NCBI GenBank assembly: GCA_029256325.1
Contig: JAQSYD010000069.1
Location: forward strand, 1 to 40,137
Source of the DNA: Clostridia bacterium
Lineage (GTDB): Bacteria; Bacillota; Clostridia; Lutisporales; Lutisporaceae
Length of the DNA stretch: 40,137 bases
Direction of reading: 5' to 3'
A program made the translations under genes and the position numbers. The notes under the pieces were generated by a model. That model saw nothing but the letters and a program-made list of their open reading frames with translations, did not search any database and had not been told where the DNA came from. Below, in pieces: positions 7,632 to 25,034 of the stretch. The first letter of the stretch is position 1. Each line of letters opens with the position of its first letter.

Positions 7632-7732
7632 AGAGCAAAGCATAAAACAGCAACTTATTTAAGGATAAATCATACAATATAGTAAGTACAAGCTTGATGT
7701 AAGCAAATCATGAAAAAATTGGGGGTATGACA

Positions 7733-8677
7733 ATGATTCACAATTATTGCACAGTACTAAGCAAAGGTTATATACACAGAGGGCTTATTTTGTACAATTC
7801 TCTAAAAAAATATGACCAAGATTTTCGCTTCTTCTTTGTCTGTATGGATGATGAAGTGGAGTCACTCCTTAAAAGGATGACCTTAGATAGGGCAATTCTC
7901 ATAACGATGAAGCATATTGAAGCTCAGGATCCAGAGCTTGCTGCTATCAAAGCTGTTCGTAACGATAAGGAATATATTTGGTCTTCGAAGGGTTCTGTCT
8001 TACTATACTTATTTCGTAATTATCCTAAGCTTAACCATATAGTCTGGTTGGACGGCGATATAGAATTTTACGCCAATCCTGAACCGATTTTTACGGAATT
8101 AGGGAAGTGTTCAATATTGTTAACAAAGGAAAGATTTGTTGAAGCATATAGTGAGTTGAACAACATTTATGGCATATTTAACACAGGATTGATGGGTTTT
8201 AAAAAGAACAGCCATACAATTAATTGCTTGAAGTGGTTTAGGAAGAAATGCATTGAATGGTGCTATGATAAAGTGGAACCGGGAAAATGGAGTGATCAAA
8301 TGTATGTAAACAATTGGCCAGTGATGTTTTATGACGTTAGAGTGATGAAACACATAGGAATAAACGTAACTGCTTGGAACATACAAGGTGCTCGAGTCAG
8401 TAAGCAGGAGGATGAAATTTATATTAATGGAGAAAAGCTGATATTTTACCACTACAGCGGTCTTAAATTTATAAATTACAATGAATTTGATTTGTGCTCC
8501 TATATTGATTTGCCGAAGGATGTTAAGGAACTGATATATATGCCATATATAGAGAAATATCAAAATATGATTGATCAAGTAAATGGGTATGTTGATAATT
8601 TCTATAACGGACTTCATTATAAAGAATATAAGTATTGCAATTACTATAAGTTAGGAGGCAAAGGAGCAAATGGATAA
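7733..8677 (+). CDS. Glycosyltransferase, GT-A fold (GT8-like), copy 1
   Basis: About 314 aa, cytosolic or membrane-associated sugar transferase. The start MIHNYCTVLSKGYIHRGLIL and the D-x-D motif (LDGD, residues 107-109) after a hydrophobic strand mark a nucleotide-sugar-dependent GT-A enzyme. Later family landmarks are the FNTGLMGF stretch, the KKCIEWCYDK helix, and D-Q-M-Y before a conserved W-N. I use ATG 7733 rather than 7727 because GGGGGT directly abuts 7727. It overlaps by 8 nt with a paralogue sharing the same landmarks. Donor and acceptor are unknown; relatives act on surface polysaccharides or glycoproteins. No polysaccharide export or polymerase genes are nearby. Confidence 0.78.
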   Translation: MIHNYCTVLSKGYIHRGLILYNSLKKYDQDFRFFFVCMDDEVESLLKRMTLDRAILITMKHIEAQDPELAAIKAVRNDKEYIWSSKGSVLLYLFRNYPKLNHIVWLDGDIEFYANPEPIFTELGKCSILLTKERFVEAYSELNNIYGIFNTGLMGFKKNSHTINCLKWFRKKCIEWCYDKVEPGKWSDQMYVNNWPVMFYDVRVMKHIGINVTAWNIQGARVSKQEDEIYINGEKLIFYHYSGLKFINYNEFDLCSYIDLPKDVKELIYMPYIEKYQNMIDQVNGYVDNFYNGLHYKEYKYCNYYKLGGKGANG

Positions 8678-9611
8678 GCAAGTGAATTACTTTTGTACTA
8701 TCACAACCAACAGTTATTTGCTAAAGGCATTGGCGTTATATGAATCCATCTACATGAATATGGGCAAAAGTTTTCATATTTGGATTTGCACAATTGATAA
8801 GATCTCCTATGATTTATTAATAAAAATAAATTTGCCTAATGCTTCGATAATTTATGTGGGAGAGATAGAAAATAAACGTCTTCTAGAGGCAAAGAATAAT
8901 CGATATGTAAATGAGTATTGCTGGACAATAAAGGCAAGTCTTGTAAAACATATATTAAAACAACACAATGATATTGATTCCATTCTTTACTTGGATTCAG
9001 ACACTTTTATGTTTTCAAATCCTCGCGTTTTTTTTGAAGGCCTAAAGAAAAATGATGTATTGCTTACCTGTCATAATTTTGGTGATGGAGTATATTTTTT
9101 GACAAGACAAAAGGGACTTTTTAATGCCGGCATCGTTGGTTTCAAAAATAGTAGAAATGCACTTCGAATCCTGAACTGGTGGGAAAATAGATGTATAGAA
9201 TGGTGCTACAACGACGTTCAACCAAATAGGTTTGGTGACCAGAAATACCTGGAGACAATAAATAATAAACATCCTAAAACAGCAGTAATAAAGTCTGTTG
9301 GTGGAAATGCAGCGATGTGGAATATTGAGCATAGTGATATAAAGAATTTAGACAATAAGGTTTATATTAACGATGATATTCTCATGTTTTTCCACTTTTG
9401 CAGTTTTTATATCATTAGTGAAAATGAATTTGATCTATGGAAATGTGTAAGTCCCAAAATAGAAACTGATGCAATGCAGCTGATCTTTATTCCTTATGTT
9501 CAAGCTATTAAAAATGCAATAAATTTGATAAAAAAATATGAGCCGGAATTATCGATTTTTTTATCAGATAAATATAATAGTGACACATTGTATAACTATT
9601 TAAAGCTTTAA
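8670..9611 (+). CDS. Glycosyltransferase, GT-A fold (GT8-like), copy 2
   Basis: 313 aa, colinear with the preceding protein. It begins with a Y/F-C-T strand (NYFCTITTNSYLLKALALYE), has the metal/nucleotide D-x-D as LDSD (residues 109-111), then FNAGIVGF, NRCIEWCYND and a GDQKY-L segment. The start codon lies inside the end of copy 1 and has AGGAGG plus AAAGGAG upstream, so the pair is translationally coupled. Divergence between copies is high outside the motifs, so the duplication is old and the two may transfer different sugars or build one linkage in sequence. A strong terminator closes the two-gene unit. Confidence 0.78.
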   Translation: MDKQVNYFCTITTNSYLLKALALYESIYMNMGKSFHIWICTIDKISYDLLIKINLPNASIIYVGEIENKRLLEAKNNRYVNEYCWTIKASLVKHILKQHNDIDSILYLDSDTFMFSNPRVFFEGLKKNDVLLTCHNFGDGVYFLTRQKGLFNAGIVGFKNSRNALRILNWWENRCIEWCYNDVQPNRFGDQKYLETINNKHPKTAVIKSVGGNAAMWNIEHSDIKNLDNKVYINDDILMFFHFCSFYIISENEFDLWKCVSPKIETDAMQLIFIPYVQAIKNAINLIKKYEPELSIFLSDKYNSDTLYNYLKL

Positions 9612-9651
9612 GAAAAGACACTTTCCATGTTCAGAAATCATATAAGCTGTA

Positions 9652-9688
9652 TGAAGGCGTGTGAAAACAATCACACGCCTTCATAATT
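9652..9688 (+). terminator. Terminator after the glycosyltransferase pair
   Basis: A GC-rich 13-bp stem (TGAAGGCGTGTGA / TCACACGCCTTCA) with a 6-nt loop is followed by TAATTTTT. Confidence 0.85.
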
Positions 9689-9701
9689 TTTAGCAATAAA
9701 A

Positions 9702-9719
9702 AAGTGCCCTAAAGCACTT
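9702..9719 (-). terminator. Minus-strand terminator beside the tRNA relic
   Basis: AAGTGC / GCACTT forms a short stem whose T-tract (TTTTTTATT) lies on the minus strand. It sits immediately downstream of the decayed tRNA-Pro 3' half when read on the minus strand, the position a tRNA terminator would occupy. Confidence 0.55.
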
Positions 9720-9720
9720 A

Positions 9721-9770
9721 AGTTTCTATAATACCCTGGATAACAGGAGATAGACCTGCGACATTTTAAA
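9721..9770 (-). pseudogene. Decayed tRNA-Pro 3' half (old attachment site or dead tRNA gene)
   Basis: Aligned with the tRNA-Pro att copy at 15602-15661, this stretch keeps the flank TTTCTATAAT, then CCTGG, TAACAGGA and GACCTGCGAC in the same order and spacing. About 27 of 38 positions match within the tRNA part, with no gaps there. The T-loop has lost its TTCAAAT, so no functional tRNA arm is possible. Beyond about 9770 the similarity to the 5' half is marginal (GCGCTA near 9800). It is either the scar of an earlier integration into the same tRNA gene or a degraded tRNA-Pro duplicate with its own terminator. The rest of the 9689-9854 gap shows nothing else. Confidence 0.6.
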
Positions 9771-9854
9771 TCTCAAAATGCAATTTTCAAGAAAAAATGC
9801 GCTAGCTAAAGGGGTGGGTATAATATATGGGGATTCGAGCATCAACAAGCTATA

Positions 9855-10520
9855 CTATGAATTCAGATTATTTCTGATGTTTTCCAATAGATAATTTTTG
9901 GCATGTTCAAAGTGATTTTCCATTAATATTACGGCTCTGTCGGAATCTTTGGCAGTTATTGCTTCAAATATATTCTTATGTTCATTAAGAACTACAGTTT
10001 CTACATTGACAAAGTTTTGATATCGATTTGTAAGGATGCTAAATAGACTTCTGATCTTTAATGAAGCATCATATAATTTAGAATTATTGGCGTACTTGTA
10101 TAGAATATCGTGGAAATCATCCGAATGCAGCTTGAAGCTTTCAATATTACCCTGTTTTAACGAATTCTCTTGTAATTCTATGGATTTCTTTAAATGTTCG
10201 ATAACATCGTCTACATGACTGTTTTTTAGTGCCAGTTTTAATGCAGCAACATCTAACAGTGAGCAGAAATCATAAATTTCTATAATATCTTTTTCATTAA
10301 TCTCCACTACTTTTCCACCAATATTAGTGATATGATCAATCAAGCCTTCCTGGCTCAGTCTCTTAATGGCTTCTCTTATTGGAGTAGAGCTGATATCAAA
10401 TCTTTCTTGCAGCGCTTTTAAAGTCAGTTTTTCACCGCACTTGATTTTTTGACTGATAATATCTTCTCTCAAGATTGTATAAATCTGGTCTGCTAAAGTC
10501 ATTTTAACAATATCTCGCAT
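9855..10520 (-). CDS. GntR-family transcriptional regulator with FCD domain
   Basis: About 221 aa. It has an N-terminal winged helix-turn-helix (about residues 5-70, with LKALQERFDISSTPIREAIK and the wing after EGLIDH) and a C-terminal all-helical FCD ligand-binding domain (about 80-210) typical of the FadR subgroup. ATG 10520 is preferred over 10526 because AGAGGG then stands at proper distance. It is divergent from the flavoprotein-ferredoxin-peptidase operon across a 229-bp gap carrying a predicted promoter in each direction and a 40-bp palindrome. It most likely controls that operon and possibly itself. FCD regulators usually bind small organic or amino acids, often with a metal; the ligand here is unknown. 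Confidence 0.88.
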   Translation of the reverse strand: MRDIVKMTLADQIYTILREDIISQKIKCGEKLTLKALQERFDISSTPIREAIKRLSQEGLIDHITNIGGKVVEINEKDIIEIYDFCSLLDVAALKLALKNSHVDDVIEHLKKSIELQENSLKQGNIESFKLHSDDFHDILYKYANNSKLYDASLKIRSLFSILTNRYQNFVNVETVVLNEHKNIFEAITAKDSDRAVILMENHFEHAKNYLLENIRNNLNS

Positions 10521-10619
10521 AAACATCCCTCTTTAGAATAAATCAAATTTTAAATATAGAAACTGGGTTCACAGGATGCAAAATCACTGCAAAGAACGCC
10601 AATCAGTATATTAATTAAT

Positions 10620-10649
10620 AGTATAGCATACAAGAATAACTGGATGCAA
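10620..10649 (-). promoter_or_regulatory. Predicted promoter of the GntR regulator gene
   Basis: On the minus strand TTGCAT (complement of 10644-10649) and TATACT (complement of 10620-10625) are separated by 18 bp, about 100 bp upstream of the regulator's start. Confidence 0.5.
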
Positions 10650-10653
10650 TAAT

Positions 10654-10693
10654 ATTTGACAATATACATTTTGCAAAATGCATATTGTCAAAT
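10654..10693. promoter_or_regulatory. 40-bp palindromic operator in the divergent region
   Basis: Two 20-bp arms (ATTTGACAATATACATTTTG and its complement) match with a single mismatch and no spacer. The right arm overlaps the -35 box of the flavoprotein promoter, and the left arm abuts the -35 of the regulator promoter. The site could therefore control both directions. The GntR protein is the obvious candidate to bind it. Confidence 0.7.
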
Positions 10694-10713
10694 AAAAAAT
10701 GATATGCTACTAT
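10685..10713 (+). promoter_or_regulatory. Predicted promoter of the flavoprotein/peptidase operon
   Basis: TTGTCA at 10685-10690 and TACTAT at 10708-10713 have a 17-bp spacer. The -35 lies inside the palindrome, so a bound regulator would block RNA polymerase. Confidence 0.6.
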
Positions 10714-10749
10714 TTTAAATAGAAGCTATAGATTGAGGGGGAGTAGTAA

Positions 10750-12702
10750 ATGTATCAACAAGATTGGCCATATCCTCTGGAGTGGGATAAGGAAGAAGTT
10801 ATACAATCAGAGGTACTGATTCTTGGGGGTGGGATAGCTGGGTGTATGGCGGCTATAGCAGCAGCTCGACAGGGTTTGCAAGTTGTGTTGGTTGAAAAAG
10901 GTGCAACAAAACGCAGTGGTGCAGGTGGATCCGGTTGTGATCACTGGGAGTCGGCAGCAACAAATCCTTGCTCTAAGGTAACCCCGGAAGAGCTTGCCAA
11001 AGCAATGCTAGAGGATAATGACGGCTTCAACAACGGCATATCACACTACATCGAGTGTCGGGAAGGGTATGACCGTTTGCTGGATATCGAAAAGCTGGGT
11101 GGAAAAATAAGAGATACAGAGGATGCGTTTAAAGGAGCAGAATTTCGTGATGAGCGTACCAAGCTCATGTTTGCTTATGATTACGAAAATAAATATACAA
11201 TAAGGATTTGGGGATCTACGTTTAAACCTGCCATGTACAATGAATTAAAAAGATTGGGTGTAAAAATTTATGACAGGATCATGATTACATCATTGCTTAC
11301 AGAGGATGGAAAACAAGGCGGTAGATGTGTGGGGGCAACAGGCATCCATACCAGAACCGGAAAATTTTATATTTTCAAAAGTAATGCCAGTGTTATGTGC
11401 ATGTCAAGACCAGCCAGAGTATGGTTATTTTCTGCAGCACTTCCAGGCTTGTGTGAGTTCAGACCAACCCAATGCATAGGAGATGGACATGCTATGGGAT
11501 GGAGAGCCGGCGCAGAGTTTACAATGATGGAAAAATCCGTAGGCGCAGAGTTTTCTGCTTCAGGCAAAAGCTATCCTCCCTATGGTGCTGGGAATAATCA
11601 TAATACATGGTATGCGGCATCACTCATTGATTCCAATGGTAAGGAAGTTCCCTATGCAGACAGGGACGGAAATATCCTGGAAGGAGTAAGTGATCGGTTT
11701 AAACCTGCCAAAGGGCAAAGGTTCTTCATGAAGGGCGGTAATATTGACAATCCGAAATATGCATATGAGGGTCCTGAGACACTCCCTTTATCAAAGATGG
11801 TGGAGGAAGGATATAAATTGCCTTTTTATGCGGATTTGTCTGCTTTACCTGACCATGAGAGAAAAGTTATCTGGGGCATGATGATCGGTGAAGAGGGAAA
11901 AACAAAAATACCTATCTATAAAAACTATAAGGATGCCGGCTTTGATCCAGAAAAGCATGTGATCCAATGCTATGGCCGCGGATGGACATCTGCAAGCTTT
12001 CTCCCGCAAGAACGACAGCTGTTTGGGCTGCCTGGTGGTTTTTTAAATGACTGGAGTCTCAGCACCAATTTGGCAGGGCTGTATGTTGCCGGTGACTCAC
12101 TTTTTGCTTCAAACTGTTTTGGGCACGCTGCAACCACTGGTTATTATGCAGGAAGGCATGCTGCGGAATTTGCACAGGAAAATGGTTTAATGGAAATTGA
12201 TCTCAAACAAATTAATAATGAAAAAGCTAGAGTATATGCACCTTTGAAAAATGATCCTCATAACAGCATAGGTTGGAAAGAGTTGAACATGGGGATTGCT
12301 AAAACGATGCAAAATTACTGCGGAGAAGTAAAACGTAATGAACTTTTAAATATTGGGCTATCACTTTTGAAGGAATATGAAGAAACAGTGATTCCCAATA
12401 CCTTTGCATATAATCCACACGAGCTTGTTAGGCTGCTTGAGGTTTTCGACATTTTGACAGTATCGCAGATCATCCTGCAGTCATGCCTTGCCAGGGATAC
12501 TAGTTCAAAGCCGTTATGCTTCCACAGAGGGGACAGCAAAGAAACGGATATAGACAAGAATAATCAGTTTATCACTGTAAAACAGGTAGACAATCAGGTG
12601 CATATTGGAAGGTTATCACTCAATTATTTTGGCGACCTGAAAGAAAACTATGAAAAAAATAATAAGGATTACATTGGAGGGGGGAATTATGATGCCAGAT
12701 AA
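10750..12702 (+). CDS. FAD-dependent oxidoreductase, AprA/fumarate-reductase flavoprotein superfamily
   Basis: 650 aa soluble flavoprotein. The N-terminal Rossmann motif GGGIAG (residues 26-31) and the ribose-binding E49 show FAD binding. An LYVAGDSLFASNC stretch near residue 450 is the second FAD signature of the succinate dehydrogenase / fumarate reductase / adenylylsulfate reductase A family. Length and the following two-cluster ferredoxin match the AprA-AprB arrangement. No sulfate-reduction genes (sat, dsr, apr/qmo) are nearby, so genuine APS reductase activity is doubtful. An oxidoreductase acting on an organic acid or amino-acid-derived substrate fits the peptidase context better, as inference. 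The ATG at 10750 follows GAGGGGGAG. It is the first gene of the operon. Confidence 0.78.
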   Translation: MYQQDWPYPLEWDKEEVIQSEVLILGGGIAGCMAAIAAARQGLQVVLVEKGATKRSGAGGSGCDHWESAATNPCSKVTPEELAKAMLEDNDGFNNGISHYIECREGYDRLLDIEKLGGKIRDTEDAFKGAEFRDERTKLMFAYDYENKYTIRIWGSTFKPAMYNELKRLGVKIYDRIMITSLLTEDGKQGGRCVGATGIHTRTGKFYIFKSNASVMCMSRPARVWLFSAALPGLCEFRPTQCIGDGHAMGWRAGAEFTMMEKSVGAEFSASGKSYPPYGAGNNHNTWYAASLIDSNGKEVPYADRDGNILEGVSDRFKPAKGQRFFMKGGNIDNPKYAYEGPETLPLSKMVEEGYKLPFYADLSALPDHERKVIWGMMIGEEGKTKIPIYKNYKDAGFDPEKHVIQCYGRGWTSASFLPQERQLFGLPGGFLNDWSLSTNLAGLYVAGDSLFASNCFGHAATTGYYAGRHAAEFAQENGLMEIDLKQINNEKARVYAPLKNDPHNSIGWKELNMGIAKTMQNYCGEVKRNELLNIGLSLLKEYEETVIPNTFAYNPHELVRLLEVFDILTVSQIILQSCLARDTSSKPLCFHRGDSKETDIDKNNQFITVKQVDNQVHIGRLSLNYFGDLKENYEKNNKDYIGGGNYDAR

Positions 12703-12979
12703 AAAAATATGTATGCCTTCAGAAATGCCTGCGGCTAATCCCATAGTGTATAATAAAGAAAAGTGTATAGGCTGCAATAGGTGTGTTGAAATATGCCAGG
12801 TAGATATTTTGATTCCGAACTCCGAAAAAGGTAAACCCCCTATGGTATTATACCCTGGAGAATGTTGGTACTGTGGGTGTTGCGTTATGGAATGTCCATT
12901 AGAAGGGGCGATTACACTTCGTCATCCTTTGATGAATCAAGTACATTGGGTTGCAAAAGAGAGCTTGATGAATAAATAG
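12689..12979 (+). CDS. Two-cluster [4Fe-4S] ferredoxin, AprB-like partner of the flavoprotein
   Basis: 96 aa from ATG 12689 (a second ATG follows directly), with GGAGGGGGG upstream; the frame is open further left but lacks a start signal. Two cluster motifs are visible: C26-x2-C29-x2-C32-x3-C36 and C59-x2-C62-x2-C65-x3-C69, the latter in the CWYCGCCVMECP form known from AprB-type subunits. It overlaps the flavoprotein end by 14 nt, which supports a complex in which it passes electrons to or from the FAD. The C-terminal tail (VHWVAKESLMNK) may contact the flavoprotein, as AprB tails do. True AprB is about 50 residues longer. Confidence 0.85.
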   Translation: MMPDKKICMPSEMPAANPIVYNKEKCIGCNRCVEICQVDILIPNSEKGKPPMVLYPGECWYCGCCVMECPLEGAITLRHPLMNQVHWVAKESLMNK

Positions 12980-13007
12980 CTATTTTATAAAAGGGAGGGG
13001 ATTTATC

Positions 13008-14000
13008 ATGTTATTAAAGGAATTGTCACAAGCCTTTGGGGTAGCAGGTTATGAGAAGGAAGTTCGTGAACTGATAAAGGAAGAAGTTAAAGCCTATTCA
13101 GATGAAATCATTACAGATGCTATGGGGAATTTGATCGTTTATAAGATGGGGGAAGGACCCCAGAAGAAAAAAATCATGCTGGCAGCGCATATGGACGAAA
13201 TAGGACTTCAGGTTACAAAGATTGAAAATGACGGTCAAATCAAAGTAAAGACGCTGGGTTTTTTATGGCTTTCTACTACTTATATGAGCAGATTCAAGTT
13301 CAGAAACGGTATTATAGGTATTGCAGCAGGACGGATTGAAGATCAGAAAAATGAGTTTACTAAGCTATATATTGATATTGGAGCCAAATCCAAAGAGGAA
13401 GCATCAAAATATGTAAAGCTAGGTGATGTAGCCAGCTATATTGGAGAATATATAGAGCTAAAGGATAACAATATTGCAGCAAAGGCATTAGATGATAGAA
13501 TAGGCTGTTATATCATGGTTGAAGCCTTGAAAAGGATAGTGAAGCCACAAAATGATATATACTTTACATTCACGGTTCAAGAAGAATTAGGTTGCAGGGG
13601 AGCTAAAGTTTGTGCAGAGAGAATAAAGCCTGATTTGGGAATCGCCATTGATGTGACGCCTGCCCATGATTATCCTTGCGATCTAGAGGGAAGCAATACC
13701 TTAGGCGCGGGTACAGGAATTAAGATCTCTGATCCATCGGTGATATGTGATGAATATCTGATTGATGAGATGGTTCAATGCTGTGAAGAGAACGCTATTA
13801 AATATCAGTATGATGTAATTGATAAGGGTGGCACAGATGCAAGCTCAATCAATCAATCCAATCTTGGCGTAAGAACAGCAGGAATAACTGTTGCAACGAG
13901 ATATCCCCATGGACCAAACAGTATGGTCAATATGTTGGATGTAGAGGCTTCAATACAGTTGCTTTGTAAATATGTGGACAGAAGCTTTATATTTGAATAG
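13008..14000 (+). CDS. M42-family metallo-aminopeptidase
   Basis: 330 aa, usual M42 length (glutamyl aminopeptidase / FrvX / TET family), a cytosolic exopeptidase that forms large oligomers. Metal and catalytic residues are in place: H61 and D63 (AAHMDEIG), D162 (KALDDRIG), E192-E193 (QEELG), D215 (AIDVTPAHD) and H301 (YPHGPNS). The ATG at 13008 has GGGAGGGG upstream. It follows the ferredoxin by 28 bp in the same operon. With the dipeptidase downstream it would release amino acids from short peptides, possibly feeding the flavoprotein's substrate; that link is inferred from gene order only. Confidence 0.9.
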   Translation: MLLKELSQAFGVAGYEKEVRELIKEEVKAYSDEIITDAMGNLIVYKMGEGPQKKKIMLAAHMDEIGLQVTKIENDGQIKVKTLGFLWLSTTYMSRFKFRNGIIGIAAGRIEDQKNEFTKLYIDIGAKSKEEASKYVKLGDVASYIGEYIELKDNNIAAKALDDRIGCYIMVEALKRIVKPQNDIYFTFTVQEELGCRGAKVCAERIKPDLGIAIDVTPAHDYPCDLEGSNTLGAGTGIKISDPSVICDEYLIDEMVQCCEENAIKYQYDVIDKGGTDASSINQSNLGVRTAGITVATRYPHGPNSMVNMLDVEASIQLLCKYVDRSFIFE

Positions 14001-14096
14001 TAATATGCTACTTCAAATACCTCGTTAAGTCGGCTAAATATGTCTATTTATTTATTGTATCCTTGAACTGGTTTGTAGAATGAAGGAGGATAAGCA

Positions 14097-15497
14097 ATGG
14101 ATTTCGAGGCAATTATTGAGAGCTACAGAGATGAAATTGTTAGATCAACTCAAGATTTAATCAAAATAAAAAGTATCAAGGCAGGAGCGGAGCCTGGGAT
14201 GCCCTACGGCCGTGCCTCCTATGAAGCTTTGCAATATGTGCTGAATTTGAGTGAGCGCTTAGGGTTTCAAGTAAAAGATATTGATGGATACGCGGGAACT
14301 GCTGAATTTGGAGAAGGCAGTGAGACGATAGGAGTATTGGTACATGTAGATGTTGTTCCTGAAGGTGAAGGCTGGACTTTTTCACCATTTTCCGGGGAAA
14401 TTCATGGGGGTAAACTGTACGGGAGAGGTGCCATAGACGACAAAGGACCAACGATTGCAGTACTTTATGCCTTAAAAGCTATTCAAGCTTCCGGTGTAAA
14501 GCTGAACAAGAAAATAAGAGTCGTATTTGGGACCGATGAGGAATCCGGCTTTGAGGGCATCAAGTATTATCTGTCAAAGGAAAAAGCATTTGATATGGGC
14601 TTTACGCCTGATGCACAGTTTCCTTTGATAAGCGGTGAAAAGGGAATACTTTTATATAAACTGAGTAAAAGGCTTAAAAGAAATACAGCAGGTGCAATAC
14701 AGATTAAATCAATAAGCGGCGGCAGTGCGCCAAATATGGTACCCGGCTTTTGCAAAGTTGTTCTTCGTATAGAAGATGAGAAGAAGTCAGAGCTGGAGGA
14801 TTTAATCAATCAATTTAAGCAGCACTATGGATTTGAAATTGCTGCAGAAGCCAAGGAGAATTTGGTGACCCTGAAAAGTTCCGGAAGGGTGGCACATGCC
14901 AGTACACCTGAGGAAGGGCTGAATGCAATTTCTATAATGATGTTTTTCTTAGAACAGCTTCAAATTGAAGATGATGAACTATTTGAGCATATTAGAATAT
15001 ATAATGATAAAATCGGCTTGTTGGATAATGGTAAGTCTTTCTGTGCCAACTACTGCGATGAAATATCGGGCAAAATGACTTTAAATGTTGGATTAATAGA
15101 AATGAATGAAAACAACTATAATATCACGATGGATATCAGATACCCAATATCATATCAAGCGGAGGAAATCGTAAAAGCTCTACATCATGAGTTTACAGCT
15201 GCAGGGTATCATATGGAGCAGCTTTTCGCATTGGATCCCATATTTTTCCCCGAGGAGCACAGTCTGCTGCAAAAACTAATGAAGGTCTATAAAAATAACA
15301 CCAAGGACTATGAGAACAAACCCATTGTCATAGGGGGTGCGACCTACGCTCGTGCTATGAAAAATGTAATTGCTTTTGGTCCGGTGTTTCCGGGAGAAAT
15401 AGAGCTTGCACATAAAAGTGATGAGTACATAACCCTTGAAAATCTGTTTAAAATTACAAAAATATATGCAGAAGCATTGGTTGAGCTAGCGAAATAG
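14097..15497 (+). CDS. pepV: M20-family dipeptidase, PepV-like
   Basis: 466 aa, the expected PepV size; hydrolyses dipeptides and some beta-alanyl dipeptides in the cytosol with two zinc ions. Visible signatures are H83-x-D85 (VHVDVVPEGEGW), RGAIDDKGP with D114, and the acid pair E148-E149 in GTDEESG. The long lid/dimerisation region between about 180 and 380 is complete. The 96-bp gap to the M42 gene contains no terminator, so it may still belong to the operon. AGGAGG precedes ATG 14097. The downstream hairpin at 15572-15600 has its T-tract on the other strand, so no clear plus-strand terminator follows. Confidence 0.9.
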   Translation: MDFEAIIESYRDEIVRSTQDLIKIKSIKAGAEPGMPYGRASYEALQYVLNLSERLGFQVKDIDGYAGTAEFGEGSETIGVLVHVDVVPEGEGWTFSPFSGEIHGGKLYGRGAIDDKGPTIAVLYALKAIQASGVKLNKKIRVVFGTDEESGFEGIKYYLSKEKAFDMGFTPDAQFPLISGEKGILLYKLSKRLKRNTAGAIQIKSISGGSAPNMVPGFCKVVLRIEDEKKSELEDLINQFKQHYGFEIAAEAKENLVTLKSSGRVAHASTPEEGLNAISIMMFFLEQLQIEDDELFEHIRIYNDKIGLLDNGKSFCANYCDEISGKMTLNVGLIEMNENNYNITMDIRYPISYQAEEIVKALHHEFTAAGYHMEQLFALDPIFFPEEHSLLQKLMKVYKNNTKDYENKPIVIGGATYARAMKNVIAFGPVFPGEIELAHKSDEYITLENLFKITKIYAEALVELAK

Positions 15498-15562
15498 AAA
15501 TTTGCTCCGGTAATGTTAAAAGAGTTGATTGATATAATAATAGTAATATGTAGAATTTAATA

Positions 15563-15600
15563 TAAAAAAACAAGCCAGTAATCCTTGAGATTACTGGCTT
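15563..15600 (-). terminator. Minus-strand terminator, the original tRNA-Pro terminator
   Basis: The stem AAGCCAGTAATC with its complement reads into TTTTTTT on the minus strand. It lies 14 bp beyond the attL copy of the tRNA 3' end, where the terminator of the uninterrupted tRNA-Pro gene would have been. Insertion of the element has separated it from the tRNA. The hairpin resembles 201-229 at 27 of 29 positions. Confidence 0.7.
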
Positions 15601-15613
15601 TAAACTTTCTATA

Positions 15614-15661
15614 ATGGTCTGGGTAACAGGATTTGAACCTGCGACCTCTTGAACCCCATTC
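15614..15661. repeat. attL: 48-bp direct repeat of the tRNA-Pro 3' part
   Basis: Identical over 48 bp to 26793-26840, with different bases on both sides. It corresponds to tRNA-Pro from just before the anticodon loop to the CCA end plus two bases. The 5' half of the tRNA is missing here, so this is the displaced chromosomal 3' end at the far side of the inserted element. Confidence 0.92.
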
Positions 15662-15740: not shown

Positions 15741-17261
15741 ATGTCATTAGACAGAAGATTATCAGATGTTCTTACAGTAGAAGAACTAAGGAGTTATGGC
15801 AGGAAGATTTGCATTATATCAGGAGTTGGCTCAGGTAAGAACTATTGGGTTGAAAATATATTACCCCAGTATGGAAGTGTGTTGCTTGTAACCTCAAGAA
15901 AAATAGTAAAGGACCAAACACTTACACGTGATTTTTTTACGGAAAAAGCTGAATGGGATGGGGTAAATTATAAGGTCTGTACACATTCTAAAATAGGTAA
16001 GTTTATACAAAGTAATACAAGACCTAATCAAAGTTTAGATGAAACAATATTTGATTATGTTGTTATTGATGAAGCACATGCAATAGTAAGCGATGCTACA
16101 TTTTCAGATGATACAAATTACTTATGGCAGTTCATAACAAATGTGAAGGCAACAGTTATATTAATGACTGCTACGGTTTCGATAATCAAAGATATGATTG
16201 AGCGAGAAGGATTTGCAATTATTGATAAAACTGAAGAATGTACCAATATCAGACCAACCTATATCAATTTGACAACAGATAACAAAGCAAGAGAATTACT
16301 GCTCACAGCTAAACCGAACAGCAAAATAATTTATATGATGCCTTCAGCAGGTGAAGCCTATAGAATAGAAAATGAATTGATTGAATGGCATTTAAGGGAT
16401 GATGTAGTGGCAATTACATCAAGTGAAAGAAATGAAGCATATAGTAAAGAAGAAAGGGTAGTTAGAGAAGAAGCTACATATAAAACAATTGTTGAAGAAA
16501 ATCGTCTTCCTGATGATGTGAATATATTATTAACTACTACAAAGTTCAGGGAAGGTGTTAATTTAATAGATGAAAGAATAAAACAGTGCATAACAGGATG
16601 CCATCCACATGTAGATATACGTCAATTTGCAGGTAGGGTAAGAACAGGAATAGATACTCTACACATAATTGAGAACAAGAAGCAAAATATAAATTCAGTT
16701 GATAAATTTGACATCGATATTGCAAAAAGACTAATACCAAAGTTTGATGAAGTAATTTATCAATATCTAAATACAGGCTTCGGCGAGAATGATTTCACAT
16801 ATGCAAATATTGAAAATTGCGTTAAGTTCTATAACAAGATAGAGAACAAGTTTGATTTAATGAAATTTAATAGATATAAAAACAGATTTGAACTTTTTGA
16901 GCAAAGGCTTATAGCTATTGAAAGAGAAAAACAAGATTTGGAGGATTTTAGAACTAATACATATTTGTATTTAGGTAATCTTTTTGGGACTGGAGTAATA
17001 ATACTGTTAAACAACAAAGCATCCTATTTACAGGGTGTTAAAAATAGATGTATCCTTTTCCTTCAGGATTACATAGGTAAAGAACTACAACCTGAGGTCG
17101 TAGAGAAACTTCTTAATGATTTAAAAGAATTAGGTTTACGAGGGAGCAAAGGGCAAGTATATGAGAAACTTGGATTTGCAATCTCATATTTAGGTTATGA
17201 ACTAATAGATGTAGGTAATAAAAATCATTTAGTCAAAAAGATAGTAAAGAAGCTGGATTAA
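15741..17261 (+). CDS. SF2 DEAH-type helicase/ATPase of the mobile element
   Basis: 506 aa. Motif I GVGSGKN (residues 28-34), motif II D110-E-A-H, motif III MTAT near 142-145, and motif VI QFAGRVR (295-301) define a superfamily 2 helicase. The region FREGVNL (269-275) matches motif V. The C-terminal 180 residues are helical and not assigned to a known domain. It is the first gene inside the left attachment site, with AGGTG before ATG 15741. Possible roles are replication of the excised element or a defence ATPase; the first is common for a helicase at an element end, but no replication initiator is recognised. A terminator follows at 17285-17315. Confidence 0.75.
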   Translation: MSLDRRLSDVLTVEELRSYGRKICIISGVGSGKNYWVENILPQYGSVLLVTSRKIVKDQTLTRDFFTEKAEWDGVNYKVCTHSKIGKFIQSNTRPNQSLDETIFDYVVIDEAHAIVSDATFSDDTNYLWQFITNVKATVILMTATVSIIKDMIEREGFAIIDKTEECTNIRPTYINLTTDNKARELLLTAKPNSKIIYMMPSAGEAYRIENELIEWHLRDDVVAITSSERNEAYSKEERVVREEATYKTIVEENRLPDDVNILLTTTKFREGVNLIDERIKQCITGCHPHVDIRQFAGRVRTGIDTLHIIENKKQNINSVDKFDIDIAKRLIPKFDEVIYQYLNTGFGENDFTYANIENCVKFYNKIENKFDLMKFNRYKNRFELFEQRLIAIEREKQDLEDFRTNTYLYLGNLFGTGVIILLNNKASYLQGVKNRCILFLQDYIGKELQPEVVEKLLNDLKELGLRGSKGQVYEKLGFAISYLGYELIDVGNKNHLVKKIVKKLD

Positions 17262-17284
17262 GGGGAAATGGTTATCTATATATA

Positions 17285-17315
17285 GAAGGGGGAGTTTTGT
17301 TGAAACTTCCCCTTC
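17285..17315 (+). terminator. Terminator after the helicase gene
   Basis: GAAGGGGGAGTTT pairs with AAACTTCCCCTTC (one G-T wobble) around TGTTG and is followed by ATTTTATG. Confidence 0.75.
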
Positions 17316-17668
17316 ATTTTATGTTAATGAAAAAATTAGATATTGAAAAATAACATAAATGATAATAACTACCGATTACATCTGCCCTCATGAGCATTTG
17401 GTGAAACTCGAACCATCAAGTTTTTGGGTTCTACAGGTGTTGGTATCACTATGTTCAAAAAGGCAAAAAGGGGTTCGAGATAGGTTCGAATTATAATAAC
17501 TGAAAATATTTAGTTCTTTGATATTAATCTAATATTACAAATGGTGTTTTCTTATTATTTTTTCAACTATTTACTTCCCAACTTGAATATTAAATGTTAT
17601 AGTAATAATTGGATTATTTAACACATTGTGCAATTAATTGTAAAATTGTGTACAAGGCTGGTGAATTT
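17316..17668. other. Non-coding gap with inverted CTCGAACC / GGTTCGAG repeats
   Basis: About 350 bp without a convincing gene. CTCGAACC at 17407-17414 is the inverse of GGTTCGAG at 17472-17479, and GGTTCGAA repeats at 17483-17490. The stretch between them is less A/T-rich than its surroundings. Both strands read without stops for about 30 codons there (minus strand includes PTPVEPKNLM), so it may be a relic of a coding sequence or a protein-binding or origin-like site. The last 100 bp are very A/T-rich and probably carry the promoter of the next operon. Confidence 0.4.
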
Positions 17669-18277
17669 ATGCATGATTATAGAAATAATATGAACAAAAG
17701 GTTATTTTGCAAACGTAATATAATCGTATACTGTATGATTATAGTAGTTACTTTGATATATAGTATTTTAAATATAAGTAGAAGTTTAAGTTATTTAAAT
17801 TACTTTTTCAATTTTGCAATCAGTATATTTACAGCAGGTGGTCTAATTTTTACAATATTTGGAGTAACGCTCAGCTATGAAATTTATAAAGAAACTGGTG
17901 ATATTTCACAAAAAATAAAATCATTAAATAAATATAAAAATTACTCTGCTGATAAAGGGACGATTGTTAGAGATCTTGAGGGTTATCGGAGTATATTATT
18001 TGAGGATAAAGCTTTTAACAATCCAACTATGATAAGAAAAGTTACGAATGAAATATTACAAGTTATTACTAAAATCGAATTATATACTGATATTATCGAA
18101 GATAACTATGATAAGAACATAGTTGATGAGATTAACTTCATCAAGGATATTATTAATCTCGGAGTTACTAATGAAAATAGGGACAAGCTTTTGAATTATT
18201 TAAGTATTATTATAGGGATTATTGATATTAAGGATTACTACTTAGATGAACAAGGGAGGAGAGCAGTAAATGAATAA
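17669..18277 (+). CDS. Two-helix membrane protein of unknown function
   Basis: About 202 aa from ATG 17669; the frame is open to a TTG at 17609 but the ATG fits a membrane protein better, and the ribosome-binding site (GGCTGGTGAA) is weak. Two hydrophobic helices (about residues 18-36 and 45-68) are followed by a long cytosolic helical domain of about 130 residues, rich in Lys, Asp, Glu and Ile. I do not recognise the family. The stop codon overlaps the start of the next gene by 8 nt, so the two are coupled. Such a membrane plus cytosolic pair inside an island could be an effector/sensor or toxin/immunity unit; this is only a possibility. Confidence 0.6.
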   Translation: MHDYRNNMNKRLFCKRNIIVYCMIIVVTLIYSILNISRSLSYLNYFFNFAISIFTAGGLIFTIFGVTLSYEIYKETGDISQKIKSLNKYKNYSADKGTIVRDLEGYRSILFEDKAFNNPTMIRKVTNEILQVITKIELYTDIIEDNYDKNIVDEINFIKDIINLGVTNENRDKLLNYLSIIIGIIDIKDYYLDEQGRRAVNE

Positions 18278-18671
18278 TTTTTACACTACTAGTTTTTTTA
18301 AAAATATTATTAATAAGACATTAAATGATGAGCTTAAGTGGAAGCATGTACCTAAGGGATATAGATCAAGAACAAGCAACGTAACAAGGAGTATTAAAGA
18401 TGCGTATTATATCCAACCTAAAGAAGATAGACGTTTAGTTATTGGTAATTTTAAGCAAGATAGTATAAATAATGAGGGTGAACCGATAGAACGTACTTAT
18501 CTTTATATGAGTTTTACAGATTTGCAGTATAACTGCTTACATGAAGTAGTAGAATATGACCTTGACAATAATTATGCAAATCTCTTATTTCAATTAATTA
18601 AAACGATTGAGATAAAAATAAACAGTATTGATGAAATAATTAATATGTTCTCAGATGATTTTGATTTCTAA
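18270..18671 (+). CDS. Uncharacterised cytosolic protein coupled to the membrane protein
   Basis: 133 aa, no membrane segment or signal peptide, starting MNNFYTTSFFKNIINK. The N-terminal half is basic (WKHVPKGYRSRTSNVTRS) and the C-terminal half acidic, ending in DDFDF. No family is recognised. GGGAGGAGAG lies just before ATG 18270. It overlaps the preceding gene by 8 nt, and a terminator follows 9 bp after the stop, so it is the second and last gene of a two-gene operon. Confidence 0.6.
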   Translation: MNNFYTTSFFKNIINKTLNDELKWKHVPKGYRSRTSNVTRSIKDAYYIQPKEDRRLVIGNFKQDSINNEGEPIERTYLYMSFTDLQYNCLHEVVEYDLDNNYANLLFQLIKTIEIKINSIDEIINMFSDDFDF

Positions 18672-18680
18672 AAGATGATT

Positions 18681-18707
18681 AAAAGACCTCATATATTGAG
18701 GTCTTTT
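18681..18707 (+). terminator. Terminator of the membrane-protein operon
   Basis: A perfect 11-bp stem (AAAAGACCTCA / TGAGGTCTTTT) with a 5-nt loop; the A-tract makes it potentially bidirectional. Confidence 0.85.
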
Positions 18708-18856
18708 ATATTTGGATTAAATTTGCATAGTTCACGTAAAGGTACACCATTAGGAATAGTCAATTTTATCATAATAGCATCTATTTTTATGCTCGTAAAG
18801 GTTATTAATTGTTTGCAATTATATTCGTATAATCTATATGCTTTTACGGTTAATTT

Positions 18857-18865
18857 TGGTATAAT
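18857..18865 (+). promoter_or_regulatory. Extended -10 promoter of the serine recombinase gene
   Basis: TGGTATAAT, an extended -10 box with poor -35, 35 bp upstream of the ATG. The same TGGTATAAT element drives the HNH operon (20568-20576). Confidence 0.5.
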
Positions 18866-18899
18866 ATATTTGTGCCAAAAACTAATAAGGGGTGTTCAA

Positions 18900-19508
18900 A
18901 TGACAAACATGAATAGAATTTACGGATATATTAGGGTTAGTGATAAAGACCAAAATGAAGCGAGACAAATTAAGGCTATGCAAGATGCAGGAGTAGACGA
19001 GAGATTTGTATTAATTGATAAACAAAGTGGTAAGGACTTTAACAGACCACAATATCAGATGTTAAAGAACGCTTTAAGGGAAGGTGATTTGCTCATAATC
19101 AAATCCATTGACCGTTTGGGCAGGAACTATAAAGAAATTATAAAGGAATGGCAAGATATAACCCAAGAACTGAAAGCAGATATTAAGGTTTTAGATATGG
19201 CTTTACTTGATACAACCTTACATAAAGACCTTTTGGGAACTTTTATAAGTGATTTAATACTTCAGGTATTAGCTTATGTTGCACAACAAGAGAGAGATAA
19301 TATAAAACAAAGACAATTAGAAGGAATTGCAGTTGCAAAGGCACAGGGAAAGCATCTAGGTAGACCAAAGGCAATTTTCCCTGAAGGATTTAAGGAAGTA
19401 TATAAAAGATGGCAGGCAGAAGAAATAACAGCAAAGAAAGCTATGCAGGTGCTAGACTTAAAACCTACAACATATTATAAGTTAGTTAAAGAACATGAAG
19501 GCAGGTGA
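18900..19508 (+). CDS. Serine recombinase (resolvase/invertase family)
   Basis: 202 aa, normal for small resolvases and invertases. The start is ATG 18900, after AAGGGG; the frame is open further left but the promoter lies at 18857-18865. The catalytic domain has YIRVS with nucleophile S14 and R12, GKDFNRPQ, and the second Arg pair in DRLGRN (R72, R75). The long E-helix and the C-terminal helix-turn-helix (about 165-200, ITAKKAMQVLDLKPTTYYK) are intact. It cuts and rejoins DNA via a 5'-phosphoserine intermediate. Element integration is explained by the tyrosine integrase at the right end, so this enzyme may resolve dimers or invert a segment. A possible hsdS remnant overlaps its 3' end on the other strand. 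Confidence 0.92.
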   Translation: MTNMNRIYGYIRVSDKDQNEARQIKAMQDAGVDERFVLIDKQSGKDFNRPQYQMLKNALREGDLLIIKSIDRLGRNYKEIIKEWQDITQELKADIKVLDMALLDTTLHKDLLGTFISDLILQVLAYVAQQERDNIKQRQLEGIAVAKAQGKHLGRPKAIFPEGFKEVYKRWQAEEITAKKAMQVLDLKPTTYYKLVKEHEGR

Positions 19509-19650
19509 AAACCTGTCTTTTGCTTATGGATGGGGGTATATTGAAAGGTTTTTGTATATTCTCTAATATGATAAACTCTATAGCACTTCCATCATTCTCC
19601 ATTGAATATTTCTTAATGTTTTGATTATTACTAGAAATAAATGTATAATA
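19486..19650 (-). pseudogene. Possible remnant of a type I restriction specificity (hsdS) gene
   Basis: On the minus strand an open stretch of about 54 codons ends at TAA (19488-19486) and is cut by TGA upstream at 19653. It reads like the end of an HsdS target-recognition half: a helical run NNQNIKKYS, GSAIEFIILENI, then IPPSISKRQ, which mirrors the usual I-x-x-P-x-x-x-E-Q close of such domains. There is no start signal, hsdM or hsdR in the window. It overlaps the 3' end of the serine recombinase. The match is by eye only and could be chance; no other gene is seen in 19509-19695. Confidence 0.3.
19499..19520 (+). terminator. Short terminator overlapping the recombinase stop
   Basis: GGCAGGT / ACCTGTC with a GAAA-type loop runs into TTTTGC; the TGA stop lies within the hairpin. 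Confidence 0.6.
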
Positions 19651-19695
19651 TCAACATGATTTATATTAATAAAGTAGGGAATGGGTGAGGTACAA

Positions 19696-20082
19696 ATGGG
19701 TAGAGGATTTTATCATGCAAGAAGGGCATTTGCTAGGTCGGTAACACATGAACTTACCAAAGGGAAAAGGACTACAACTAATAGAACTTCAAATAAAAAA
19801 GAGACACTTGAGGATATGAATATGTACTTACCCCCAAAATTATTTTGGATGTATTGGATAGTAGCAATGTCGGTGTTTATTCTTCCTTTAGTATTTACTG
19901 ATACGGAATATACAGGTGCTATGTCTTTTATTAGTTTCTTTGTAGTATATGCAACAATGTCTATACATAGCAATAGAATAAAGTCAAAAAAAGAAGCTTA
20001 CATACTTGAAGAAAAGAGAAGGTTAAGATTAGAAGAAATGGAACTTGAAAGGCAAGAAAATAGAAAAATAAAAAAAGAATAG
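19696..20082 (+). CDS. Small membrane protein with basic N-terminus and coiled-coil tail
   Basis: About 128 aa from ATG 19696, chosen because GGTGAGG then sits at normal distance; ATG 19681 is also in frame. A strongly basic N-terminus (RGFYHARRAFARS, then GKRTTTNR) precedes two hydrophobic helices (about residues 50-67 and 76-92 of the short form). A charged coiled-coil tail rich in Glu, Lys and Arg ends in KIKKE. I do not recognise it. Monocistronic, with its own terminator directly after the stop codon. Confidence 0.5.
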   Translation: MGRGFYHARRAFARSVTHELTKGKRTTTNRTSNKKETLEDMNMYLPPKLFWMYWIVAMSVFILPLVFTDTEYTGAMSFISFFVVYATMSIHSNRIKSKKEAYILEEKRRLRLEEMELERQENRKIKKE

Positions 20083-20103
20083 CACTTAACGGTGCTATTT
20101 TTT
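20078..20103 (+). terminator. Terminator overlapping the stop of the small membrane protein gene
   Basis: AATAGCAC / GGTGCTATT around a short loop, followed by TTTTTTA; the TAG stop is inside the stem. The stretch 20104-20205 to the right shows no gene and holds the 3' flank of the minus-strand gene. Confidence 0.8.
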
Positions 20104-20205
20104 ATTACACAAAATGATTTGATAAAATATTCTTTTTATTTGAAGATTAGCTTCTGAAGGCGTTGGGATAGAAGGGGTGTAGGAAGAAGGCATGCTAAAA
20201 CCTAC

Positions 20206-20508
20206 TTAGCCTAGTATAGCAACGATAACTTGTGCTATTGTTGCTATTACTTGCATAACTCCAACAAAAACTAATGCTTTTGTCAATCCAACAATCTTAT
20301 TATTGTATTGTTCGTTGGATTTTTCTAAAGTTTCATTTGAAGCAATCATTCTGTGAACAGATTGCTCAATGGTCTTTGACAGATAAATTTCTGAGATAGT
20401 TTTAATTTGATTAGCATCTGCAATTGTTGCTGTTTTCGAAGCATTTAGCAATTCTTCTTCATCTTTATTAAGATTAAATTTTTCAAATAATTTGTCATAA
20501 GTACCCAC
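20206..20508 (-). CDS. Tail-anchored small protein of unknown function
   Basis: 100 aa, transcribed against its neighbours. GTG start at 20508 with GAGGTG five bases upstream. Residues 1-75 are soluble and helical (EEELLNASK, then SKTIEQSVHRMI and a Gln/Asn-rich stretch). Residues 76-99 form a single hydrophobic helix at the very C-terminus (LTKALVFVGVMQVIATIAQV), so it would sit in the membrane as a tail-anchored protein. No family is recognised. Its opposite orientation and its isolation between terminators suggest separate control. Confidence 0.5.
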   Translation of the reverse strand: MGTYDKLFEKFNLNKDEEELLNASKTATIADANQIKTISEIYLSKTIEQSVHRMIASNETLEKSNEQYNNKIVGLTKALVFVGVMQVIATIAQVIVAILG

Positions 20509-20567
20509 ATTAACACCTCATTATTATAATTGTTATTTGTGAAAAAGTATTTCTAGTTTAATTATAA

Positions 20568-20576
20568 TGGTATAAT
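20568..20576 (+). promoter_or_regulatory. Extended -10 promoter of the 107-aa/HNH operon
   Basis: TGGTATAAT again, 34 bp before the ATG at 20610; the -35 region is weak. A GGGAAAGGGGAG ribosome-binding region follows. Confidence 0.5.
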
Positions 20577-20609
20577 ATGGTTATATCAATTGGGAAAGGG
20601 GAGTTTTAA

Positions 20610-20933
20610 ATGTATTTAGTACAAGCTACAGAGAATTACAATTTATATAGGATGGAGGTTTTGCGATATAGAGTGGTCGAGAGAGAAGGCAAGGTTTCTG
20701 AATTAACACATAATATTAAAATTCTTAGTTCTAAGTTAAACGAAGATTTTATAATAGAGGTTGAAATCGCAAACATAAATGGAGGTTTTATAACTGCATA
20801 TGCTAATGTTAGTTATATTGATGAAGGTTATCATATTTCCGAAACTATAAATACTGAAATCCCTCCAAGTGTAATTGAAGCCATAGAAAGAGTTATAGGT
20901 GAATATTCGGAGCTAGAAAGGTTAATTTGCTAG
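20610..20933 (+). CDS. 107-aa protein of unknown function, partner of the HNH nuclease
   Basis: 107 aa, soluble, with alternating hydrophobic/charged strands (EDFIIEVEIANINGG, then FITAYANVSYIDEG), suggesting a small beta-sheet domain followed by a C-terminal helix (PPSVIEAIERVIGEYSELER). Its shape resembles SecB-like or small chaperone/antitoxin folds, but I do not recognise a family. AAAGGGGAG precedes ATG 20610. Its TAG stop is followed with no gap by the ATG of the HNH nuclease gene, so they are one transcript with tight coupling. A regulatory or inhibitory partner of the nuclease is an inference from that coupling. Confidence 0.6.
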   Translation: MYLVQATENYNLYRMEVLRYRVVEREGKVSELTHNIKILSSKLNEDFIIEVEIANINGGFITAYANVSYIDEGYHISETINTEIPPSVIEAIERVIGEYSELERLIC

Positions 20934-21911
20934 ATGGACTTTCTATCAAAATGGTTAAATATTATTAGAAAGTGCAATATTGATAATACATATAAGATGG
21001 CATGGGCTAAGGCTCTAACAGAGATAGCCTTAGAAACTGACTTTGACAAGATTGATAATCAACAAATAGAAATAACACTAGATACTATTGCAAGAAAAGT
21101 AGTTAAATATTATTGGGAACAAACGATTTATTTTGACCTAAAGCAAGGGAGTAATCCTTTAAAACCACCTAAAATATTATCGGTGACTAAGAGTTTAATT
21201 AGCAAATACCAACATAAAGCAAATTCTACTCACCCAATAAAATATTTAAAATCTAATGTTGAGAATATTTGTGAGACTGAATATGAAATAACTATCAAAC
21301 AAGTAATAGCAGCTTTAAAACAAGATGTGAGTTATAGGTTTATTTCTCTTGGAGGTAAGATTGTAGAAGGTATTTATGAATATGAAAAAGGTGATAATTC
21401 GCTTTGTATGACTTTAGATAACCTAAGAGTGTTAAAAGATAACTATGGTATTAGTTTTGAAGCTATTAATTATAGGTGGTCGCAAATACTTGAGAATTTT
21501 AATCAAACACCAAGAATTTGTAAGAAGGTTAGAATAATAGATATTGAGGAAATAAGAAGAACCCCACTTTCTAAATTTATAAAGTATCTAGACTATGAAA
21601 ATCCTGAACATTCTTGTTTTATCTGTGGGAAAAATATAGAAGGAGAAACCCCTTCACTTGACCATGTGATTGCTTGGTCATACTTATACTCAGATGATAT
21701 ATGGAATTTGGTATTTGCACATAGAAGCTGTAATAGCAGTAAATCAAACATTATACCAAATGAGCAAGTTGTTAATAAGCTAGAAAAAAGAAATCTGAGA
21801 TTATTAGAAGCATTAATTGAAAATGGAGTAAACAATAAAGAAACGTCCGAACTGCAATTTGCTATTGAACATAATTTAGTTAAGAAGTTTTGGATTTCTT
21901 GTCAGGGGTAA
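20934..21911 (+). CDS. HNH endonuclease with a large N-terminal domain
   Basis: 325 aa. The C-terminal third carries a zinc-type HNH domain: C228-x2-C231 (CFICGK), the catalytic D243-H244 (SLDHVIAWS), N258 (WNLV) and H263-x2-C266-N267 (HRSCNSSKSN). The first 200 residues form a helical region, unassigned, that probably recognises substrate or partner. There is no methyltransferase beside it, so a classic type II restriction pair is not evident. It starts directly after the stop of the 107-aa gene. A stand-alone restriction or anti-phage nuclease is plausible in an integrative island; homing is less likely because the gene is not inserted in another gene. Confidence 0.8.
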   Translation: MDFLSKWLNIIRKCNIDNTYKMAWAKALTEIALETDFDKIDNQQIEITLDTIARKVVKYYWEQTIYFDLKQGSNPLKPPKILSVTKSLISKYQHKANSTHPIKYLKSNVENICETEYEITIKQVIAALKQDVSYRFISLGGKIVEGIYEYEKGDNSLCMTLDNLRVLKDNYGISFEAINYRWSQILENFNQTPRICKKVRIIDIEEIRRTPLSKFIKYLDYENPEHSCFICGKNIEGETPSLDHVIAWSYLYSDDIWNLVFAHRSCNSSKSNIIPNEQVVNKLEKRNLRLLEALIENGVNNKETSELQFAIEHNLVKKFWISCQG

Positions 21912-21999
21912 GGGTCTGTAATTAATAAGTCAGTAGGATACTCTAACAATAAAAGTATTCAAGAAAGATTGTTAATATACACAAAAAAGGGGGGATTAT

Positions 22000-22944: not shown

Positions 22945-22989
22945 ACCGTGTAGTTTAATTAGGATACATTCTTCTTATATGGTGACTTT

Positions 22990-23020
22990 AAGACATACCA
23001 ACTCAAAGGTATGTCTTTTT
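22990..23020 (+). terminator. Terminator after the PD-(D/E)XK gene
   Basis: AAGACATACC / GGTATGTCTT with an 8-nt loop and following T-tract. The remaining gap up to the next gene has a G-rich patch near 23060-23095 and a promoter at 23134-23162. Confidence 0.85.
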
Positions 23021-23133
23021 ATAAGATTAAGCGAATTTAAATCAAGATTTTTTTGAAGAACTGGTTCGTGGAAGGGTTGCGTTGCAAGGGGCGTAAATAG
23101 TAATGCCATTATTACAATAAACATAACCAATTG

Positions 23134-23162
23134 TTGAATGAAAATACAATAAAAGGTAAAAT
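23134..23162 (+). promoter_or_regulatory. Predicted promoter of the next membrane-protein gene
   Basis: TTGAAT at 23134-23139 and TAAAAT at 23157-23162 with a 17-bp spacer. Confidence 0.45.
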
Positions 23163-23194
23163 AAAGGTATGTTTAAAAGTTGGGGGGGATAAAT

Positions 23195-23521: not shown

Positions 23522-23592
23522 TTATAGATAACTTCAAATATTATATCTAGTTAAGATTGCTATGAAATTTATTATTTTAAGGGGGATTTATA

Positions 23593-23949: not shown

Positions 23950-23991
23950 ATAGTTAATGAGGTGGACAAAAAACAAGTTTTGGAGGTTCAA

Positions 23992-24918: not shown

Positions 24919-25034
24919 TATGTAGGTTACGCAAATTCAATAATCAGAACTTATGAAACACAAAAGTATGATTGTATTTCTGTTGATGATGATATTAGAT
25001 GATAATAATTTTGTAAAGTTAAGGGGTTTTGTTT

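Follow-up and report, generated by a model that had tools for sequence, protein, structure and literature searches.

A decayed tRNA-Pro 3' fragment as the probable scar of an earlier insertion at a layered tRNA-Pro(GGG) locus in Lutisporaceae

The window analyzed here, a stretch of 40,137 nucleotides (contig JAQSYD010000069.1 of assembly GCA_029256325.1, positions 1 to 40,137) from a Clostridia bacterium of the family Lutisporaceae, carries a pair of glycosyltransferase-like genes (GT1 and GT2), a degenerate tRNA-Pro 3' fragment with a terminator hairpin, a 5.9-kb block (9775-15605), a perfect tRNA-Pro 3' fragment, a low-GC island and an intact tRNA-Pro(GGG) gene (Table 1). As described in the initial annotation, the two fragments bracket GntR, flavoprotein, ferredoxin and peptidase genes, and the peptidases are two in number (M42 and M20/PepV). 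The genes to the right of the tRNA are presumably those of SepF, YlmH and DivIVA, labels that we take from the usual gene order.

Table 1. Features of the tRNA-Pro locus in the window, with the evidence for each.
Feature	Position	Strand	Evidence
Glycosyltransferase package, horizontally shared	7652-9770	+	81.5% DNA identity over 2126 bp with G005:C29; fourfold sites 90/128
Glycosyltransferase-like GT1	7727-8677	+	80% amino-acid identity to G005
Glycosyltransferase-like GT2	8670-9611	+	78% amino-acid identity to G005
Intrinsic terminator hairpin of former tRNA (GTGC type)	9702-9719	-	72.6% over 73 bp with G020, E=1.9e-7
Degenerate tRNA-Pro(GGG) 3' fragment with 10-bp flank (scar)	9722-9774	-	profile 22.6 bits, E=2.7e-6; 37/48 with the 15606 copy
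GntR/FCD regulator, first gene of the block	9855-10526	-	homology with congener G004 from 9855
Fumarate-reductase/AprA-like flavoprotein	10750-12702	+	sequence match
Ferredoxin-like 4Fe-4S protein	12650-12979	+	sequence match
M42 aminopeptidase	13008-14000	+	sequence match
M20 dipeptidase, PepV type	14097-15497	+	unlinked to the cluster in relatives
Terminator hairpin of middle fragment (AGCCAG type)	15573-15599	-	sequence; type common to tRNA-Pro of G001, G002, G007, G017
Perfect 47-nt tRNA-Pro 3' fragment and 9-bp flank; left boundary of current island, right limit of block	15606-15661	-	profile
Current low-GC island with resolvase-domain protein and tyrosine integrase	15741-26721		domains, composition
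Tyrosine integrase of current island	25744-26721	-	
Intact tRNA-Pro(GGG), integration target	26794-26870	-	tRNA search

The relic (9723-9770) was compared with the att copy starting at 15606 and with the intact tRNA-Pro(GGG) gene, and it is identical to the former at 37 of 48 positions counted from 9723. The flank TTTCTATAAT is preserved completely (10/10) and the tRNA portion at 27 of 38 positions, exactly reproducing the count on which a decayed tRNA-Pro 3' end with a common flank had been proposed. With the two true copies set aside, the runner-up site in the window reaches 26/48, and the maximum over 300 first-order Markov windows is 30/48. As well, the gapped score of the relic is 41, against a maximum of 36 among 40 simulated windows. 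A sequence-only profile (R1), which represents the half-tRNA and was built from 22 other copies of the family with the relic excluded, matches the relic at 22.6 bits with E=2.7e-6 in the window and E=2.4e-4 in the 3.57-Mb genome, E-values that the search tool itself treats as rough. Four matches stand above the relic genome-wide, three of them perfect-type copies and the fourth another real tRNA.

The initial annotation had made the similarity depend on its significance in a covariance-model search, and here the whole-tRNA model is borderline, while the fragment profile is clearly significant. With the full-length tRNA-Pro covariance model, the relic scores 14.8 bits (E=0.061). Two matches rank above it, the intact tRNA and the perfect fragment of 47 nt at 15615, and the latter has E=7.9e-8. 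An Rfam tRNA search of the whole genome reported neither the relic nor the perfect 15615 fragment; because it also misses the latter, this search cannot decide the question, and the half-tRNA profile was therefore used. The T-loop of the relic, previously described as destroyed, is altered, whereas the T-stem is preserved (GCAGG/CCTGT). Moreover, the changes are clumped and spare the flank and the T-stem (P about 0.001, post hoc), a pattern not expected from simple neutral decay.

DNA homology between the window and a genome of another genus in the same family (G005, contig C29) extends over the glycosyltransferase pair and terminates within the relic, which corresponds to a point inside the second tRNA fragment of G005. 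In G005, the GT1-GT2 homologues are flanked by intact tRNA-Pro 3' fragments of 58 and 54 nt, forming a 2.4-kb package without a recombinase. At fourfold-degenerate sites, 90 of 128 are identical between the window and G005 in GT1 and GT2, compared with 61 of 220 in the six genes right of tRNA-Pro, and the same six genes gave 175/346 between the window and the congener G001. This difference indicates that the GT1-GT2 package has moved horizontally. In a tree of 38 rows, GT1 pairs with the G005 package copy at 100/99 and GT2 at 100/100, and both stand apart from the other glycosyltransferases of G005. Related genes also flank tRNA-Pro in G010, G017 and G021; a reading of GT1 and GT2 as plain ancestral neighbours was considered and is opposed by the tree and the fourfold sites.

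The gene order in G010 is GT3, UDP-sugar dehydrogenase, intact tRNA-Pro and a HlyD-like gene, and in G005 it is GT3, UDP-sugar dehydrogenase, first fragment, GT1, GT2 and second fragment. The UDP-sugar dehydrogenase of G005 is 69% identical to that of G017, and likewise that of G010. Since the first fragment of G005 sits where G010 has an intact tRNA-Pro, G010 represents the empty site for the G005 package. A further tRNA fragment left of the pair, such as G005 has, was not found anywhere in the window with filters off (next best match 4.3 bits). A glycosyltransferase query of named GTDB contigs found no relative, and no genome was found in which the pair is joined directly to an intact tRNA-Pro. 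The G005 array is detached from its own tRNA-Pro (array on C29, tRNA-Pro on C23) and its second fragment lies about 110 bp from tRNA-Leu(CAA); the position of this package suggests a rearrangement or a secondary location. Repeats TGTTACCAC adjoin the fragment near tRNA-Leu(CAA) (G005:C29, L138 14615-14870).

The minus-strand terminator reported to follow the relic is present as a hairpin (9719-9702), and its type is that of the fragment ending the G005 package and of the intact tRNA-Pro of a third genome, G020, where the GTGC-terminator unit still terminates the tRNA gene. In a three-way alignment, the terminator and fragment of the relic align with the second fragment of G005 and with the terminator and 3' end of the intact G020 tRNA-Pro, and the relic is therefore a decayed form of a unit that elsewhere is still a tRNA-Pro end. 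The unit is 72.6% identical between the window and G020 over 73 bp (E=1.9e-7) and 97.8% between G020 and G005 over 89 bp. The 10-12 bp separating the terminator from the fragment read TTTCTATAAT in the window and ATTACTTAGA in both G005 and G020. The spacer tracks the host lineage even though the glycosyltransferase package is common to the window and G005; either the point of exchange may therefore be to the left of the tRNA, or conversion may have occurred later. Terminator type does not follow age in a simple way: the GTGC type belongs to the window's oldest scar and the AGCCAG type to the younger one, and several unoccupied tRNAs carry the latter type as well.

To the right of the relic, homology with the congener G004 starts 81 bp beyond the end of the scar and belongs to a different chromosomal place. 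The homology thus switches abruptly at the scar, and since the match to G005 stops inside it and that to G004 starts at 9855, the scar is the seam of two segments that were probably acquired separately. Gaps of 81 bp and 108 bp separate the genes of the block from the left fragment and from the flank of the right one, respectively. None of the five genes encodes a recombinase or a conjugation protein, and the block shows no remnant of an integrase or of transfer genes. The GntR-flavoprotein cluster lies at other places in six relatives (G004, G006, G010, G013, G015 and G019); in G004, where the contig end cuts the cluster, GntR and flavoprotein are present, and the order GntR-flavoprotein-ferredoxin-M42 is found in the other five (cut in M42 in G006). 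PepV is not linked to this cluster in the relatives. A close M42 match was found in none of the other four genus members, all incomplete genomes (best 33%, in G004). The neighbours of the cluster in G004 are unrelated genes, among them a tyrosine recombinase gene at a distance of about 1.4 kb from GntR and the flavoprotein (G004:C69, L225 2194-3228).

No tRNA-Pro fragment was matched beside the cluster in the retrieved stretches of the six relatives (loci L225-L230), or near the flavoprotein in 79 named loci. Three profile matches of 17-23 bits near flavoprotein loci were rejected as fragments, because each proved to be an intact tRNA gene, for Pro(TGG) in one case and for Leu in two. The GC and GC3 values of the block (0.388/0.359) are native when compared with those right of the tRNA (0.376/0.36) and with the current island (0.303/0.234), so a compositionally foreign block, which had been considered, is ruled out, and its divergence from relatives is ordinary and near that of the flanking genes. 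Relatives of the flavoprotein that are 70-74% identical occur in Bacteroidota and Spirochaetes MAGs (L249, L250, L251 and L277), above many Clostridia, which suggests transfer of this gene between phyla.

The island at 15.6-26.8 kb has an intact tRNA, a displaced 3' fragment and a tyrosine integrase between them, as in tRNA islands, and also encodes a resolvase-domain protein (18675-19508). The profile matches at 9722, 15604 and 26784-26840 (the tRNA) share one orientation, as expected of tandem accretion. A second contig of the same genome (G000:C18, 19 kb; L139 9058-10229) carries a tyrosine recombinase beside a perfect 49-nt tRNA-Pro 3' fragment, together with coupling-protein-like, actin-like (ALP_N) and PcfJ-like proteins. 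It could be a second element able to use the same tRNA-Pro; its contig ends were checked for an overlap that would point to a circle, and none was found.

In the family, fragments were surveyed with the R1 profile and DNA searches, the latter over 22 family genomes. Fragments of the tRNA-Pro 3' end occur in series with the tRNA in G001 (one), G002 (two), G007 (one) and G020 (one), and the two of G005 are on a contig other than that of the tRNA. Eight segments, including the block and the island of the window, are bounded on both sides by tRNA-Pro fragments or the tRNA. Among them, a PF00589 or PF00239 domain was detected solely in the current island of the window, in a survey that covered tyrosine recombinases (PF00589) in nine genomes and serine recombinases (PF00239) in six. 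About 620 bp separate the short second fragment of G020 (24 nt aligned; G020:C123, L221 3631-4345) from the intact tRNA-Pro, and the mini-segment between them has one 151-aa open frame.

These observations are best explained jointly, with a probability of roughly 0.8, by a relic that is the decayed att site of the glycosyltransferase package, a block that was inserted later and an integrase island that came third. Integrative elements that target tRNA-Pro(GGG) would recombine within its 3' half, so that a displaced 3' fragment and its terminator come to mark the far end. Every incoming element would supply its own tRNA 3' end and terminator, restoring tRNA-Pro and displacing the previous end. 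The glycosyltransferase package would once have ended in the GTGC terminator and a tRNA 3' end that was then the functional end of tRNA-Pro; a subsequent insertion would have severed this end, and with selection gone the fragment would have decayed. The GntR/flavoprotein/peptidase block, today without a recombinase, would be that subsequent insertion, and the 11-kb island with the integrase a third, recent one, by which the scar is displaced further from the tRNA. We infer site-specific recombination as the cause, this order of events, the entry of the block by the same route, and mobilization. The earlier proposal of a fossil of a previous insertion at the same tRNA is well supported by two facts: a package that lies between intact fragments in G005 has the scar as its right end in the window, and the same terminator/fragment unit ends the intact tRNA-Pro of G020.

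The weight of the rival readings differs by the part of the array that they address. Chance resemblance to tRNA-Pro could appeal to the full covariance model (E 0.061), and it is hardly credible given the profile E of 2.7e-6, an identity of 37/48 where 300 simulated windows reach 30/48 at most, and the positional homology with an intact fragment in G005. A dead second copy of the entire tRNA-Pro gene, in which integration was not involved, was the alternative offered in the initial annotation; it would explain the terminator and the 3' half. For this reading a 5' half was sought at 9771-9850, and loose scoring gave a weak trace at about 9786-9822, equalled by 3% of random places, but strict scoring yields nothing (9% of random places equal it). 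The profile match, moreover, halts at 9774, in the anticodon region, as in integration fragments, and what G005 has at the corresponding place is a homologous fragment of 54 nt. As the recognizable part runs from the 3' end no further than the anticodon region, a dead duplicate is very unlikely.

The remaining rival accepts that the scar ends the package and holds that the block was not integrated at an att site, having reached its place through some other kind of recombination or through deletion and rearrangement. The native GC and GC3 of the block, its divergence close to that of the flanking genes, the occurrence of the GntR-M42 cluster elsewhere without a tRNA-Pro fragment and the unlinked PepV are consistent with it. 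The block genes, however, stop within 81 and 108 bp of the fragments, the cluster is at a different place in G004 and the congeners yielded no close M42 match (0/4, all incomplete), and we regard placement by other means as rather unlikely. Flanked by a degenerate relic on the left and a perfect 47-nt fragment on the right, with a homology break at its left side and its cluster elsewhere in six relatives, the block is probably an insertion. The suggestion that it is an older island that lost its integrase is plausible and indirectly supported by this position, the left break 81 bp from the scar and an M42 gene without a close match in 4/4 incomplete congeners; its native composition and ordinary divergence, and the failure to find a genome joining the glycosyltransferase pair to tRNA-Pro, speak against it.

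The whole array, read as layered insertions at tRNA-Pro, is a tandem accretion of CIME-like remnants, a known kind at a new location. CIMEs and tandem accretion at tRNA genes have been reviewed (PMC5704250), and, as far as that account goes, the array is similar in having integrase-less segments between att fragments, beside an integrase-bearing element and in series at one tRNA 3' end. Unlike the CIMEs described there, the oldest visible att site is degenerate, the block has no conjugation genes and there is no sign of cis-mobilization. Given the decayed left site, excision or mobilization of the block in cis by the neighbouring element is doubtful. Similarly, the ssrA islands of Dehalococcoides, of which 16 of 31 have an integration module, are described as tandem islands downstream of one RNA gene with direct repeats of its 3' end and an integration module in part of them (PMC3146451), but their target is tmRNA and their recombinases are serine recombinases, in contrast to the tRNA-Pro and tyrosine integrase here. 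The tRNA-island definition of Islander, as outlined in PMC4383910, requires an intact tRNA, a displaced 3' fragment and a tyrosine integrase and fits the 15.6-26.8 kb island. Because candidates without an integrase are discarded, according to that outline, the block and the segments of G001, G002, G005, G007 and G020 would be missed as separate islands. At the level of titles, no account of Lutispora/tRNA-Pro islands, tycheposons or CIME/accretion was recognized as this array.

The layers of such a hotspot can be read in order, with a perfect fragment near the tRNA, a decayed one farther off and a homology switch at the seam. Recombinase-free segments bounded by fragments, which integrase-based island finders drop, can carry horizontally transferred genes. 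As a long shot, tRNA-Pro(GGG) in Lutisporaceae might even be a cassette platform, in which small recombinase-free packages of genes, terminator and tRNA 3' fragment would be excised and re-inserted in trans by the integrases of resident elements, such as the island of the window or the C18 element with the same att. The 2.4-kb package of G005 offers a concrete test case for such trans mobilization. If this were true, genes such as those for surface glycosyltransferases would pass from genus to genus although they bring no recombinase with them.
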